Shown here piece by piece: positions 4,936 through 53,563 of a stretch of 64,000 bases of DNA (positions are counted from its first letter, which is position 1; each line of letters starts with the position of its first letter). Made by a program: the position numbers and the translations under genes. The notes under the pieces were generated by a model. That model saw only the letters and a program-made list of their open reading frames with translations. It made no database searches and had not been told where the DNA came from. The DNA is from Flavobacterium sedimenticola. GTDB taxonomy: Bacteria > Bacteroidota > Bacteroidia > Flavobacteriales > Flavobacteriaceae. The stretch is from contig NZ_JASGBP010000001.1 in the NCBI RefSeq assembly GCF_030053345.1, positions 1-64,000 of the forward strand, read 5' to 3'.

Positions 4936-4974
4936 ATAATTTTTTTGAAGCTTTTTCCCGCTATCCGTTACAAT

Positions 4975-5031
4975 CTTTTTGTTTTGTGCTCCAACTTCCC
5001 GATACTTCGGACACCGGCACAAAACAAAAAG
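4975..5031. repeat. Intergenic inverted repeat with perfect 15-bp arms
   Basis: The arm CTTTTTGTTTTGTGC (4975-4989) is exactly reverse-complementary to 5017-5031, with a 27-nt spacer that contains a CCCGATACTTCGG-type sequence; CTATCGGGG follows at 5043-5051. No T-run follows the second arm, so it is not a standard terminator. It resembles the short palindromic extragenic elements scattered through Flavobacterium genomes (from memory; not searched). Confidence 0.65.
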
Positions 5032-5065
5032 GATTTTCACTGCTATCGGGGCTAAACAATCCAAT

Positions 5066-47673: not shown

Positions 47674-48063
47674 ATGACCATTTTGACCAAAACAAAGCTG
47701 TTTTACTTGACTTTATCCCTGCTTTTTTTTACACAAAAAAGCCGGAGTCAGGAGGAAAAAGTAACCTTACATCAAGACCCGAAGTTTGAGCAGCTTTTAA
47801 ATGAAAAAAGAAAGATAAACAGCTCAATTACTATCAATGATCGCTACAAAATTCAGATTTTTAACGGAGATAGTGAAAATTCAAAAAAAACGTTGATTGA
47901 TTTTAAAAAGGAATATAAAACTCTTGATGCAACCATCGTCTTTAGTACACCCCAATACAAAGTTTGGGTCGGCAATTTTAAAACTCGAATTGAAGCTGAA
48001 AAAAACCTAGAGTTACTCAAAAAAAGATATCCCAATGCTTTTCTGATAAAGCCAAACAAATAA
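47674..48063 (+). CDS. SPOR-domain exported protein
   Basis: A 129-aa protein with a signal peptide (residues 1 to about 25, FYLTLSLLFFTQKSRS) and one SPOR domain (about 55-129). The SPOR features are YKIQIFNGDSE at the start, YKVWVGNFKTRIEAEKNLELLKKRYP and FLIKPNK at the end. SPOR domains bind denuded peptidoglycan glycans; such small proteins are common in Flavobacteria. It is transcribed away from act and converges on infB. Confidence 0.9.
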   Translation: MTILTKTKLFYLTLSLLFFTQKSRSQEEKVTLHQDPKFEQLLNEKRKINSSITINDRYKIQIFNGDSENSKKTLIDFKKEYKTLDATIVFSTPQYKVWVGNFKTRIEAEKNLELLKKRYPNAFLIKPNK

Positions 48064-48093
48064 AAAAAGGCCCCAAAATCGGGGCCTTTTTTT
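48062..48093. terminator. Bidirectional terminator between the SPOR gene and infB
   Basis: An 11-bp stem (AAAAAGGCCCC at 48064-48074 with 48081-48091) and a 6-nt loop, with A and T tracts on both sides. It serves the plus-strand SPOR gene and minus-strand infB, whose stop codon abuts it. Confidence 0.9.
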
Positions 48094-50806
48094 ATTTCAA
48101 TTTTTTCTTCACTTCCACTTCCTGGAAAGCTTCGATAACATCATATTCGTGAATGTCGTTGTAGTTCTTAATCTGCATTCCACAGTCATATCCTTTGGAC
48201 ACTTCCTTCACATCATCTTTAAAGCGTTTCAGTGTGGCCAATTCTCCGGTGTAAATAACTACCCCTTCGCGAATAAGACGAATTTTAGAGTTTCTGAAGA
48301 TCTTACCATCGGTGACCATACAACCGGCGATAGTACCGACTTTAGATATTTTAAAGGTCTCCCGAATCTCGGCAGTTCCGGTAATTTCTTCTTTCAATTC
48401 CGGTGACAACATACCTTCCATGGCGTCTTTCAAGTCGTCGATGGCATCGTAAATAATCGAGTAGTTTCGGATATCGATTTCCTCCTTATCGGCCAATTGC
48501 TTGGCATTTCCGGAAGGACGCACGTTAAATCCGATAATAATCGCATCGGAGGCCGAGGCTAGCAATACGTCAGATTCCGTAATCGCTCCAACGCCTTTAT
48601 GAATAATTCTGATTTGAATTTCTTCAGTAGATAGTTTGGAGAAGGAATCCGATAAGGCTTCTACCGAACCGTCTACATCTCCTTTTAAGATAATATTTAA
48701 CTCTTTGAACTGACCCAAAGCGATACGGCGACCAATTTCGGCCAATGTAATGTGCTTTTGGGTACGCACCGATTGTTCGCGTAATAATTGCGTACGTTTG
48801 GCGGCAATTTGTTTTGCTTCTCTTTCGTCTTCGAAAACATTGAATTTATCTCCGGCAGTTGGCGCTCCGTCCAAACCTAAAATAGAGATAGGTGTTGATG
48901 GTCCGGCCGTAGTCACGTTATGACCCCGTTCATCGTGCATTGCTTTGATTTTACCGTGATTTTTACCCGCCAATACATAATCTCCCACTTTCAAAGTACC
49001 GGCTTGTACTAAAACTGTAGACACATAACCTCTTCCTTTGTCTAAGAAAGCCTCTACTACGGTTCCGACAGCAGGTTTTTTCGGATTGGCTTTCAAGTCT
49101 AATAACTCCGCTTCCAACAATACTTTTTCCAGCAATTCTTTTACACCGGTTCCGGCTTTTGCAGAGATATCATGGGATTGGTACTTACCACCCCAATCTT
49201 CTACTAACAAATTCATACCGGCCAATTGTTCTTTAATTTTTTCCGGATTAGCCGCCGGTTTATCCACTTTGTTAATAGCAAAAATCATGGGAACTCCGGC
49301 CGCTTGCGCATGACTGATTGCTTCCTTGGTTTGCGGCATAATATCGTCGTCCGCTGCAATCACAATGATGGCAATATCGGTCACTTGAGCCCCACGAGCA
49401 CGCATAGCCGTAAAGGCTTCGTGACCCGGTGTATCTAAAAACGTAATCGATTGCCCATTATCCAACTCTACTCCGTAAGCACCGATGTGTTGGGTAATTC
49501 CTCCCGATTCCCCGGCAATAACATTCGTTTTACGGATGTAATCGAGTAATGATGTTTTACCGTGATCTACGTGACCCATAACGGTAACAATAGGCGCGCG
49601 GTGAACTAAATCTTCCGGTTTGTCTTCCACCACTTCAATCGCTTCTTCAATATCGGTAGTGATAAACTCTACTTCATAGCCAAACTCATCGGCTACAATA
49701 GACAAGGTTTCCGCATCCAAACGCTGGTTCATGGTAACCATGATTCCCAAGGCCATACACGTTCCGATAACTTTGGTAATCGGCACATCCATCATGGTTG
49801 CAATTTCTCCGACGGTCACAAATTCTGTTACTTTCAGAATTTTGCTTCCTTCTTCCAATGCCTGCATTTCTTCTTCAGAACGCTGACGGTGAGAATCACG
49901 TTTGTCCCGACGGTATTTGGCTGCTTTGGATTTGTTTCCTTTTCCTTGTAAACGCTCTAGCGTTTCTTTGATTTGGTTTTTAACTTCTTCTTCTGTTGGC
50001 TCTACTTTTTGTACTATCGCGGGACGGTTACCCTTTTGGAATCCGGGTTTTCCGCCAAACTTAGCGTCTTTATTTTGAGCACCGCCAACTGCCGGTCTTT
50101 GTTCTCCGGGCTTTGGCGCAATTCTTTTTCTTTTGTTTTTATTGCTGTTCGCATTTTGTCCTGCCGCCGCATTAGGAGTAGCGGTATTGGCTTTAGCATC
50201 TTTTTTGAAATCCTCTTTTTTCTTTTTAGGCTTTTCAAACTGTGATAAATCGATGACCTGACCTGTTAAAGTAGTTCCCGATAATTTTTGATACTGTGTG
50301 GTAAAAGTTTCATCGGCTGTCGTTTCTTCTTTTACAAGAACTTCTTTTGGTGCACTTACCTTCTCGGTTTTCTCCTCAACAACTTCTTTTTTCTTTTCTT
50401 TGGGTTCTTCAGTAGAACTTTCCGTTGGCTGTGCCACCGGCGCTTTAGGTTCCAAATCAATTTTACCGACTTGTTTCGGACCGGTTACCACCGCTTTAGC
50501 CTTGATAAGCTCCAACCGTTGACGTTCCTCTTCTTGCTTTCGCTTATCTTCAATTTCTTTTTCACGCTCTAAACGAAGCGCTTCTTTCTCTTTTCTGATT
50601 TCTTCACTTACGCCTTTAGAAGCTTCTTTGTTCCCTTTGTCTCCTGCAAATTGGCCACAAAGAATATTATACACTTCGTCGGAAATCTTTGTATTCGGAC
50701 TTGCTTCAATAGCAATCCCTCTATCTTTCAGATAATCTACAGCTCTTTCCAAAGAAATATTTAATTCCCTTAAAACTTTATTAATTCTAATGTTTCCTTC
50801 AGACAT
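48092..50806 (-). CDS. infB: Translation initiation factor IF-2
   Basis: A 904-aa GTPase that places initiator tRNA on the ribosome. The N-terminal IF2-N domain is followed by a long Lys/Glu- and Ala/Pro-rich linker, a second IF2-N segment and the G domain with [17 protein letters not shown] and NKVDKP. Domains II to IV end at VKKKLK. It is third in rimP-nusA-infB, an order found in many bacteria. Confidence 0.97.
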
Positions 50807-50848: not shown

Positions 50849-52090
50849 TTAGTCCTCGAACTCTTCTTTCAATATTTTTATTACTTCTAAAATAGTTTCT
50901 TCTTCCAAATCGGTTCTTCTCACCAAATCAGCCACATCTTGATTCAGGATACTGCGAGCGGTATCTAAACCGATTTTAGCAAACTCATCAATTACCCATC
51001 CGTCGATTTCATCGGAGAACTCTGTTAATTCAACATCATCTTCTTCGATAGCGCTGCCTTCGCGAATCACATCCAACTCATAACCGGTTAATAATCCGGC
51101 TAACTTAATATTGTGTCCGCCGCGACCGATAGCCTTAGATACTTCTTCCAATTTAAGGAATACTTCAGCTCTTTTTTTCTCTTCATCAATTTTAACCGAA
51201 GATACTTTGGCAGGGCTTAACGCTCTGGTAATATACAACTGAATGTTGTTGGTGTAATTGATTACGTCAATATTTTCGTTCCCTAACTCACGAACAATAC
51301 CGTGAATACGAGAACCTTTCATTCCCACACAAGCGCCAACCGGATCAATTCTGTCATCATACGAATCTACGGCTACTTTGGCTTTTTCGCCCGGAATACG
51401 TACTACTTTTTTAATCATAATCAAACCGTCAAAAACTTCCGGAATTTCTTGCTCGAACAATTTTTCCAGGAATTTATCCGCCGTTCTCGACATGATAATT
51501 TGAGGCTTATTGCCTTTCAACTCAACGCTTTCAATGATTCCGCGCACATTGTCTCCTTTACGGAAGAAGTCGGACGGAATTTGTTTTTCTTTCGGCAATA
51601 CAATTTCGTTTCCTTCATCATCCACCAAAATTACAACTCTTGGTCTAACATGATGCACTTCGGCAGTATAAATTTCACCTATCAAATCTTTAAATTGTTT
51701 ATAAAGATTGGTGTTGTCGTGTTCGTGAATTTTGGAAATCAAATTTTGACGCAATGCTAAAATGGCTCTTCTACCTAAATCGATTAATTTCACCTCCTCG
51801 GATACATCTTCTCCTACTTCAAAGTCGGGCTCAATTTTACGCGCTTCAGACAAGGCAATTTGTTGGTTTTCATCCTCCACCTCACCATCAGCGACCACCA
51901 CGCGATTTCTCCAAATCTCCATATCTCCTTTGTCGGGATTGATAATGATATCAAAGTTGTCATCAGAACCGTATTTTTTCTTCAATGCGTTTCTGAACAC
52001 ATCCTCCAAAATCGCCATAAGCGTTACTCGATCAATAAGTTTATCATCTTTAAACTCTGAAAATGATTCGATTAATGCAATATTTTCCAT
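50849..52090 (-). CDS. nusA: Transcription termination/antitermination factor NusA
   Basis: A 413-aa RNA-polymerase-binding protein with an N-terminal domain (ALIESFSEFKDDK, LMAILEDVFRNALKKKYG), an S1 domain, and KH domains (GACVGMKGSRI, AIGRGGHNIKLA). It stops soon after the KH part, with only a short acidic end, so the two acidic repeats of E. coli NusA are missing, as is usual outside Proteobacteria. It starts 11 nt after rimP. Confidence 0.96.
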   Translation of the reverse strand: MENIALIESFSEFKDDKLIDRVTLMAILEDVFRNALKKKYGSDDNFDIIINPDKGDMEIWRNRVVVADGEVEDENQQIALSEARKIEPDFEVGEDVSEEVKLIDLGRRAILALRQNLISKIHEHDNTNLYKQFKDLIGEIYTAEVHHVRPRVVILVDDEGNEIVLPKEKQIPSDFFRKGDNVRGIIESVELKGNKPQIIMSRTADKFLEKLFEQEIPEVFDGLIMIKKVVRIPGEKAKVAVDSYDDRIDPVGACVGMKGSRIHGIVRELGNENIDVINYTNNIQLYITRALSPAKVSSVKIDEEKKRAEVFLKLEEVSKAIGRGGHNIKLAGLLTGYELDVIREGSAIEEDDVELTEFSDEIDGWVIDEFAKIGLDTARSILNQDVADLVRRTDLEEETILEVIKILKEEFED

Positions 52091-52101: not shown

Positions 52102-52566
52102 TTAAAATATTATTATAACAATTGCTTCTTTTATGTCTGCATAAGGAATATCCCGTTGGTGCTCAACCGTTTCTTTTCCTTTGCCTATTTTTTTGGGCTC
52201 TCTCGCCTTCCACGAAAGCGTGATGTAATCATCCGAAGCTTCAATAAGCGTAGCCTCGATAGTTTCGGAGGCTGTTTTTACTTTGAGTGTTCGGCCTATA
52301 TTTTTTTTAAACTGTCTGACCAATTTTAAGGGCGTTGACACTCCGGCTGAAGCCACTTCAAGTGAAAAATCCTGCTCTTCTCTGTCTAAATTGTGCTCGA
52401 TGGCCCGACTGATATCAATACAATCTTGTAAAGATACGCCATTATCGCCATCCAAGGTAACCATTATTTTGTAACTGTCTGTAATGGTTAAGTCTACAAG
52501 AAACAGCGAAGGCTTTTCCTGCAATCCTTTTTCTAACAAATCAGCAACTTTTTCTTTGAATGTCAT
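52102..52566 (-). CDS. rimP: Ribosome maturation factor RimP
   Basis: A 154-aa factor for 30S maturation. The RimP features are [29 protein letters not shown] in the N-terminal domain and the [11 protein letters not shown] start of the Sm-like C-terminal domain. ATG at 52566 is chosen; a longer frame to 52602 would encode part of a hairpin in the leader. It opens the rimP-nusA-infB operon. Confidence 0.93.
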
Positions 52567-52574
52567 ACTTGTAT

Positions 52575-52600
52575 AAAAAGAGGGAAGCGATGCTTCCCTC
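52575..52600 (-). promoter_or_regulatory. Terminator-like hairpin in the rimP leader (candidate attenuator)
   Basis: On the minus strand GAGGGAAGC pairs perfectly with GCTTCCCTC (52600-52592 and 52588-52580), with a 3-nt loop, then UUUUU (52579-52575). It lies after the predicted transcription start and ends 8 nt before the rimP ATG. The neighbouring upstream gene is divergent, so it does not end another transcript. Confidence 0.6.
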
Positions 52601-52631
52601 ATTATTTAATTTTGAATGGTAAATAACGCTG

Positions 52632-52660
52632 CAAATATAGTTATTTTTTTAAAAATCAAA
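52632..52660 (-). promoter_or_regulatory. Promoter of rimP-nusA-infB
   Basis: Minus-strand TTTG (52660-52657), 17-nt spacer, TATATTTG (52639-52632), an exact match. It places transcription start near 52628 and gives a leader of about 60 nt. Confidence 0.78.
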
Positions 52661-52738: not shown

Positions 52739-53563
52739 ATGAAAAAAATATTAGTCCCAACAGACTTCTCGGAACACGCCGGTTACGCCCTTAAGGTGGC
52801 TGCTCAAATTGCAAAAAAAAACAACGGTGAAATTTTTCTTCTCCACATGTTGGAATTACCACATCAAGCCAGTGATGCTGTAGGTTCCGGACATGATTTG
52901 CCGGAGATTATGTTGTTTAAAAATGCCGCCATCAACAAGTTGGAAGAGTTGATGGACGACCCGAGTTTGGACGGCATAAAAGTTTCGGAAATCATACAAT
53001 TCGAATTGGCTTTTGACGGTATCATGAATATCAGCAAGAAAAATGATGTTGATTTAATTGTTATGGGTTCTCATGGTGCCAGCGGCTTCAAAGAAATGTT
53101 TATTGGTTCTAATGCTGAGAAAGTTGTTCGCAACTCTGATATTCCGGTATTGATTATCAAGAAAGAAGCCGGAGATTTTGAAGTCAATAAGTTTGTTTTT
53201 GCTTCTGACTTTTCAGATGAAATTCGAAAACCATTTGCCAAAGTAGTGGAATTCGCCAATAAGTTCAATGCCGAATTACATCTGGTTATGATTAACACCC
53301 CCAGCAGTTTTAAACCAACGCATATTGCCAAAGATATCATGGACAGTTTCATTTCCAACTTTAGCATCAATAAATTTTCCACAAACATTTACAATGATGT
53401 GAATGTTGAAAACGGGGTCTTAAACTTTGCGAATCATATCGATGCCGATTTGATTGGCATGAGTACGCATGGCCGAAAAGGATTGGCTCACTTCTTTAAC
53501 GGAAGCATTAGTGAAGACCTGGTAAATCACGCCGTAAGACCGGTGGTGACTTTTAAAATATAA
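52739..53563 (+). CDS. Tandem-domain universal stress protein
   Basis: A 274-aa cytosolic protein with two UspA domains (about residues 1-145 and 150-274). The first has the nucleotide-binding pattern GSHGASG followed by GSNAEKV; the second has STHGRKG then GSISEDL. Both fit the G-x2-G-x9-G(S/T) ATP-binding type. Such proteins respond to starvation or redox stress; the exact role is unknown. It stands alone between a divergent rimP operon and a terminator shared with tRNA-Gln. Confidence 0.92.
   Translation: MKKILVPTDFSEHAGYALKVAAQIAKKNNGEIFLLHMLELPHQASDAVGSGHDLPEIMLFKNAAINKLEELMDDPSLDGIKVSEIIQFELAFDGIMNISKKNDVDLIVMGSHGASGFKEMFIGSNAEKVVRNSDIPVLIIKKEAGDFEVNKFVFASDFSDEIRKPFAKVVEFANKFNAELHLVMINTPSSFKPTHIAKDIMDSFISNFSINKFSTNIYNDVNVENGVLNFANHIDADLIGMSTHGRKGLAHFFNGSISEDLVNHAVRPVVTFKI

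Follow-up and report, generated by a model that had tools for sequence, protein, structure and literature searches.

The rimP-nusA-infB operon in the window (the whole stretch of 64,000 nt of Flavobacterium sedimenticola DNA that was analysed) is preceded by a short leader in which a promoter is followed by a hairpin and a run of U. Judged by comparison with related genomes, the hairpin is not a chance feature, and its position and that of the promoter have been kept through evolution. It is probably an intrinsic terminator serving as a promoter-proximal, antiterminator-free attenuator, by which NusA would exert feedback on rimP-nusA-infB. More tentatively, the element can be regarded as nusA's own attenuator and not that of rimP, kept across much of the Bacteroidota in sequence-divergent forms and possibly retained ahead of nusA when rimP is gone, with very small genomes lacking both.

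Leader of the rimP-nusA-infB operon

The features of the leader and operon are given in Table 1. Transcription is predicted to start near position 52628 (minus strand), and 31 nt separate the -7 box from the hairpin. Reading of the minus strand confirmed the promoter described in an earlier sequence-only reading, of Bacteroidota type with a 17-nt spacer and an exact -7 element. The coordinates and description of the hairpin given there also hold: a perfect 9-bp hairpin about 28 nt past the predicted start, followed by five U and ending 8 nt before the ATG (U tract end at 52575, rimP ATG at 52566). The upstream neighbour of rimP is a divergent, putative universal-stress-type gene (named by its sequence) that starts at 52739.

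Table 1. Positions of the leader elements and genes of the rimP-nusA-infB operon in the window.
Feature	Position	Strand	Basis
Bacteroidota sigma-A-type promoter, TTTG (52660–52657), 17-nt spacer, TATATTTG (52639–52632)	52632–52660	minus	Direct reading; TAnnTTTG ahead of the hairpin in 109 of 110 rimP loci
5′ leader from the predicted start, including AU-rich helix 1 (52627–52620 with 52608–52601)	52601–52628	minus	MFE and centroid fold
Terminator hairpin GAGGGAAGC-ATC-GCTTCCCTC, perfect 9 bp, arms 52600–52592 and 52588–52580, loop of 3	52580–52600	minus	Direct reading, terminator scan, fold
U tract UUUUU (TTTTT, 52579–52575), then AUAC	52571–52579	minus	Direct reading and leader alignment
rimP from the conserved ATG 52566; frame also open from ATG 52602	52102–52566	minus	ORF reading and homologue search
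nusA, second gene of the operon	50849–52090	minus	ORF reading
infB, third gene of the operon	48092–50806	minus	ORF reading

The predicted fold of the leader consists of two adjoining helices, with the AU-rich helix 1, a feature absent from the sequence-only reading, directly 5′ of the terminator. The folding energy of the 58-nt leader is -17.4 kcal/mol, compared to -5.07 (sd 2.31) for dinucleotide shuffles (z = -5.34). Between 45 and 64 kb, 33 terminator-like sites were counted against 18.0 (sd 4.7) in shuffles, and the rimP leader hairpin ranks third among them (9 pairs, 6 G-C). A search of the genome for its sequence, allowing up to 3 mismatches, gave this site alone. A strong terminator-like hairpin of 17–18 pairs, readable on both strands, lies past infB at 48058–48097, beside a convergent gene.

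The stability of the leader hairpin (-14.5 kcal/mol) is about that of the ten 3′ terminators of the window (-10.5 to -20.5 kcal/mol); read-through would therefore have to be efficient for an operon that carries core genes. The signature of a weak terminator was looked for, and both hairpin and U tract were found to be similar to those of the window's 3′ terminators; for this reason no weakness is claimed for the leader terminator. A separate structured RNA, Flavo-1 (RF01705), was matched in the window at 4950–5057 (minus strand, 76.3 bits); according to the passage on it in a study of F. psychrophilum (PMC9723704), its function could not be clarified.

Conservation in flavobacterial rimP loci

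rimP was present in 194 of 199 genomes of the genus, and 30 loci were retained. The best 80 rimP loci of a second named collection were added, giving a total of 110 loci, with some organisms in both sets. The order TAnnTTTG, GAGG...CT(C/A) hairpin and T run was found in 109 of these, the sole exception (L083) being a locus at a contig edge where the sequence begins within rimP. The hairpin starts 24–32 nt past a -7 box in 108 of the 109, and nusA was located by tblastn in all 110. When a fixed terminator criterion was applied, 96 of 96 distinct family leaders passed, compared to 4 of 1920 shuffles.

Covariation in the stem was counted on 52 distinct leaders, hand-chosen out of 93. The pattern used for selection comprised TAnnTTTG, GAGG, (C/T)CT(C/A) and two T, and the invariance of those letters is partly due to it. 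An alignment of leaders, in search of paired stem changes, had been proposed in the sequence-only reading; the stem proved to be kept. Of its cells, 99.8% are paired, and four of eight pairs, all four unaffected by the selection pattern, have changed in a compensatory way (G-C to C-G, G-C to A-U, A-U to C-G). The basal GAGG/CCUC is nearly unvarying over the 52 leaders, in part because the pattern held it, and the four T directly 3′ of the stem are invariant, two of them being demanded by the pattern. Helix 1 (7 pairs) has 77.2% of cells paired over the same leaders, against 31.1% when shifted by one column, and two-sided change in five of the seven pairs.

A covariance model of promoter and leader gave one strong match (56–87 bits) in 60 of 61 genomes of the genus; part of these hits arise by construction, as some of the model sequences were drawn from the same genomes. 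The genome that forms the exception is merely 60% complete. All other matches scored at most 37.6 bits, at least 22 bits lower than the strong match of the same genome. Among the hit loci examined, the hairpin starts 33–44 nt ahead of rimP in 30 of 30. The basal GAGG/CCTC is seen also in ordinary-looking terminators of the family, and so does not have to represent a specific binding site. A family-wide hairpin pattern was found in 67 of 249 cases, a count that is an underestimate (the pattern demanded a T absent in Flavobacterium), includes ordinary terminators and does not represent a rate.

Distribution across the order, class and phylum

A wider set of 80 rimP loci from the order, class and phylum yielded 78 distinct leaders, of which 66 passed a strict terminator criterion, compared to 31 of 1560 shuffles. 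A hairpin with a larger loop is discernible by eye in several of the 12 failures. A second, order-level set gave 11 passes among 20 leaders. Two of these (L289 and L290) are hairpins further upstream, and both loci also carry a GAGGGGAC hairpin directly past the promoter near rimP. The nine failures are all from a single family (f2), in which 25 of 26 loci share a distinct conserved leader whose loop is longer. The f2 leader (L292–L297, L306–L308, L329–L344) is strongly conserved and reads TTTACGG, A tract, AAGGC, loop, GCCTTTTTTCGTA; pairing of its TACG and A tract with the U tract and CGTA would be possible.

The stems diverge in sequence among lineages, examples being GAGGGGAC/GTCCCCTC, GAGGGAAC/GTTCCCTC and GGAAGGGGC/GCCCCTTC. 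A terminator with arms of unequal composition was found in 67 of the 80 wide loci, with the 5′ side G-rich in 58 and C-rich in 9. The C-rich 5′ arm, the reverse of the usual arrangement, occurs in distant members of the phylum (L142, L143, L145, L155, L163, L170, L171, L187 and L190), e.g., AGTCCCGC/GCGGGACT. Some leaders have merely 8–12 nt from the -7 box to the stem, which would leave little room for an antiterminator in several lineages. The interpretation of the hairpin as a leader attenuator, first made from the window's letters, is supported by this distribution: the hairpin hardly shifts in relation to promoter and operon, and terminators recur before the operon across the phylum.

nusA genes without an upstream rimP

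A match to the RimP_N domain was absent in 4 of 218 genomes and, in a second set, in 34 of 146. Among the 20 of these 34 that were listed, 14 are tiny (0.3–0.6 Mb) and six are larger. Two of the larger six were left out, G691 because nusA lies at a contig edge and G714 because a piece of rimP is present. The G714 piece holds unread bases and was overlooked by both domain searches, so that the absence of a RimP_N match is not proof of rimP loss. In G682, G657, G659 and G653 (92–99% complete), no rimP was found ahead of nusA and the second RimP domain had no match over the cut-off. All four carry a terminator 20–146 nt ahead of nusA, behind a TAnnTTTG box. In G682 this is GGAGGGGAC, and three relatives of the same family have rimP behind a AGGAGGGGAC hairpin. 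The four genomes retain infB next to nusA, and the data therefore do not separate NusA from IF2. In two other loci (L247, L249), no infB match was found within the examined flank 3′ of nusA, and the gene may be farther off.

A family designated f31 gave a similar picture. No RimP match was found in the three genomes tested genome-wide, and no rimP-like frame in the nusA flanks of 23 of 23 loci. The strict criterion was passed by 14 of the 23 nusA leaders and a loosened one by 22, compared to 0 and 2 of 1150 shuffles that preserved base composition only. A GGGC...GCCC motif, the same as that printed for the rimP-leader (PMC2965389), is present in 21 of the 23. In tiny genomes (0.3–0.6 Mb; L235, L238, L240, L241 and L246), nusA is kept and neither a leader hairpin nor a rimP match was found (five of five); a further nine tiny-genome loci begin at nusA and are outside this count. 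The leader hairpin is thus dispensable in such genomes. With tiny genomes excepted, the terminators ahead of nusA in the order-level genomes and in f31 indicate that the leader accompanies nusA rather than rimP. That the leader is found before nusA without an upstream rimP bears on which operon product feeds back, a question posed in 2010 (PMC2965389), and argues against RimP.

Proposed mechanism

The terminator ends about 50 nt past the predicted start of rimP-nusA-infB transcription. RNA polymerase would either halt at the U tract, giving a transcript of about 50–55 nt, or continue into the operon. NusA, the operon's own product, would most likely stimulate stopping at the leader terminator: plentiful NusA would lead to more termination and less operon mRNA, and scarce NusA to read-through into the operon. 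The element would be a bare terminator, its efficiency being set by the transcription machinery. From the comparative data we infer actual termination, partial read-through and NusA as effector, the last because of the B. subtilis nusA precedent reviewed in PMC12288461 and the argument made for the rimP-leader (PMC2965389).

An antiterminator was searched for in the 93 distinct leaders. Pairing between the 5′ part of the leader and the 5′ stem arm was no stronger than in shuffles, and none of the 93 has a competing duplex that comes within 5 kcal of the hairpin's stability. NusA feedback fits both the absent antiterminator and the leader ahead of nusA genes without rimP. nusA and infB are core genes. 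A conserved terminator about 50 nt past their promoter bears on whether NusA stimulates termination in Bacteroidota.

Alternative explanations

An ATG at 52602, at the base of the hairpin and not noted in the sequence-only reading, is in phase with rimP, has an A-rich context and opens a 166-aa frame (52602–52564 region, minus strand). Translation might then cross the hairpin, with RimP starting at this codon or a short leader peptide from it controlling the terminator, and an ATG does stand at the hairpin base in 83 of the 93 distinct leaders. However, only 33 of the 93 have an ATG or GTG at that place in the rimP frame, close to the one third that chance would give; in 53 the start opens a different frame, of varying length, and 7 lack a start codon. 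No conserved short frame over the terminator was found in the 93 leaders, neither frames nor lengths being conserved, and in some lineages the rimP start lies 88–129 nt from the hairpin. Since the ATG ahead of the hairpin is not conserved in frame, both a leader peptide and an N-terminal extension of RimP were rejected on these frame statistics, and translation across the hairpin is considered very unlikely. An automatic gene call from ATG 52602 may make rimP too long; the conserved start is ATG 52566. Even less credible, to the point of being nearly dismissed, is that the hairpin ends a transcript arriving from upstream and plays no part in the control of rimP. A sense terminator in an upstream gap is usually that of the gene before it: such terminators were found in 4 of 25 gaps in the window, all four past a co-directional gene, and in none of nine genes with other kinds of neighbour (this control took rimP from ATG 52602, thus excluding its own leader). 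The gene upstream of rimP is divergent, however, with the rimP promoter lying between it and the hairpin, and in 109 of 110 loci the promoter comes first, ahead of the hairpin.

The hairpin could also act as a structure of the 5′ end, making the operon mRNA more stable or blocking 5′-end-dependent decay, the U run being incidental. Its closeness to the 5′ end, 8–12 nt past the -7 box in some lineages, and the almost wholly folded 5′ end in the window would suit such a role. A stabiliser would not need the four invariant T past the stem (52 leaders; two by the selection pattern), and hairpin and T run are retained together across the leaders tested with the fixed criterion, which makes this explanation improbable. 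Somewhat less so, and still on the unlikely side, is a conserved leader terminator with an effector other than NusA, whether IF2, RimP or a fixed partial terminator that sets a basal level or couples to RNA polymerase speed. The compact leader has no sensor domain and is compatible with a constitutive partial terminator, and infB still adjoins nusA in the four order-level genomes without rimP. Against these, RimP as sole effector is unlikely because nusA genes with no rimP before them also have the terminator; retention across the phylum with compensatory changes suggests regulation instead of a fixed setting; and in the case of IF2, L247 and L249 have no infB match in the examined flank 3′ of nusA, though it may be farther off. 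An attenuator responding to NusA is the reading preferred here.

Comparison with known systems

The mechanism that controls nusA in B. subtilis is not known to involve an antiterminator. That gene is described in a review (PMC12288461) as controlled by NusA-stimulated termination in its 5′ leader. The window's element resembles it in that an intrinsic terminator, located in the 5′ leader, would govern transcription into nusA; NusA dependence is reported there (PMC12288461), whereas here it is inferred.

The rimP-leader (Naville and Gautheret 2010, PMC2965389) is presented in that paper as a short terminator with a G-rich 5′ arm, a C-rich 3′ arm, a T stretch and a GGGc(...)gCCC motif, at a variable distance from the gene, with a general form without visible antiterminator and with NusA as the best candidate regulator. 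The element of the window is likewise located in the 5′ leader of rimP-nusA-infB, has the form of a terminator (96 of 96 distinct family leaders pass the terminator criterion), has G-rich 5′ and C-rich 3′ arms and a T stretch, and lacks an antiterminator structure (none in 93 leaders). Unlike the GGGc...gCCC of the rimP-leader (PMC2965389), its stem, GAGGGAAGC/GCTTCCCTC, has GGG...CCC but no GGGC. The terms 'bacteroid' and 'flavobacter' have no occurrence in the main text of PMC2965389. The Rfam family 'rimP' (RF01770) gave no match above the cut-off in 21 genomes, including that of the window, and none at the leader up to an E value of 10; Rfam as a whole gave no credible match at the rimP leader. 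A match to STnc290 (27.3 bits, cut-off 60) was attributed to chance similarity between hairpins.

In F. psychrophilum, a structured 5′ element upstream of rimP, occurring also in other genera of Flavobacteriaceae and without an Rfam hit, is reported in one sentence by Guerin et al. (2021, PMC9723704). It is very probably the same element as that of the window; the entry gives no structure or mechanism. In the open-licence literature searched, no other paper describing the Bacteroidota rimP element was found, nor any account of nusA or infB control in Bacteroidota. The sequence-only reading had set aside the E. coli nusA leader as a different one, which needs correction, as it is not simply different.

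The kind of attenuator is already known from the rimP-leader and B. subtilis nusA, as is, in outline, a structured flavobacterial element before rimP (PMC9723704). As far as the open-licence literature searched goes, what is new are the stem's compensatory changes, the element's distribution across the phylum, the absence of both a conserved frame and an antiterminator, and the occurrence before nusA genes without rimP. If the element is indeed nusA's own, then, together with the Firmicute and gammaproteobacterial leaders, antiterminator-free feedback by NusA would be near-universal, and perhaps an ancestral bacterial circuit.
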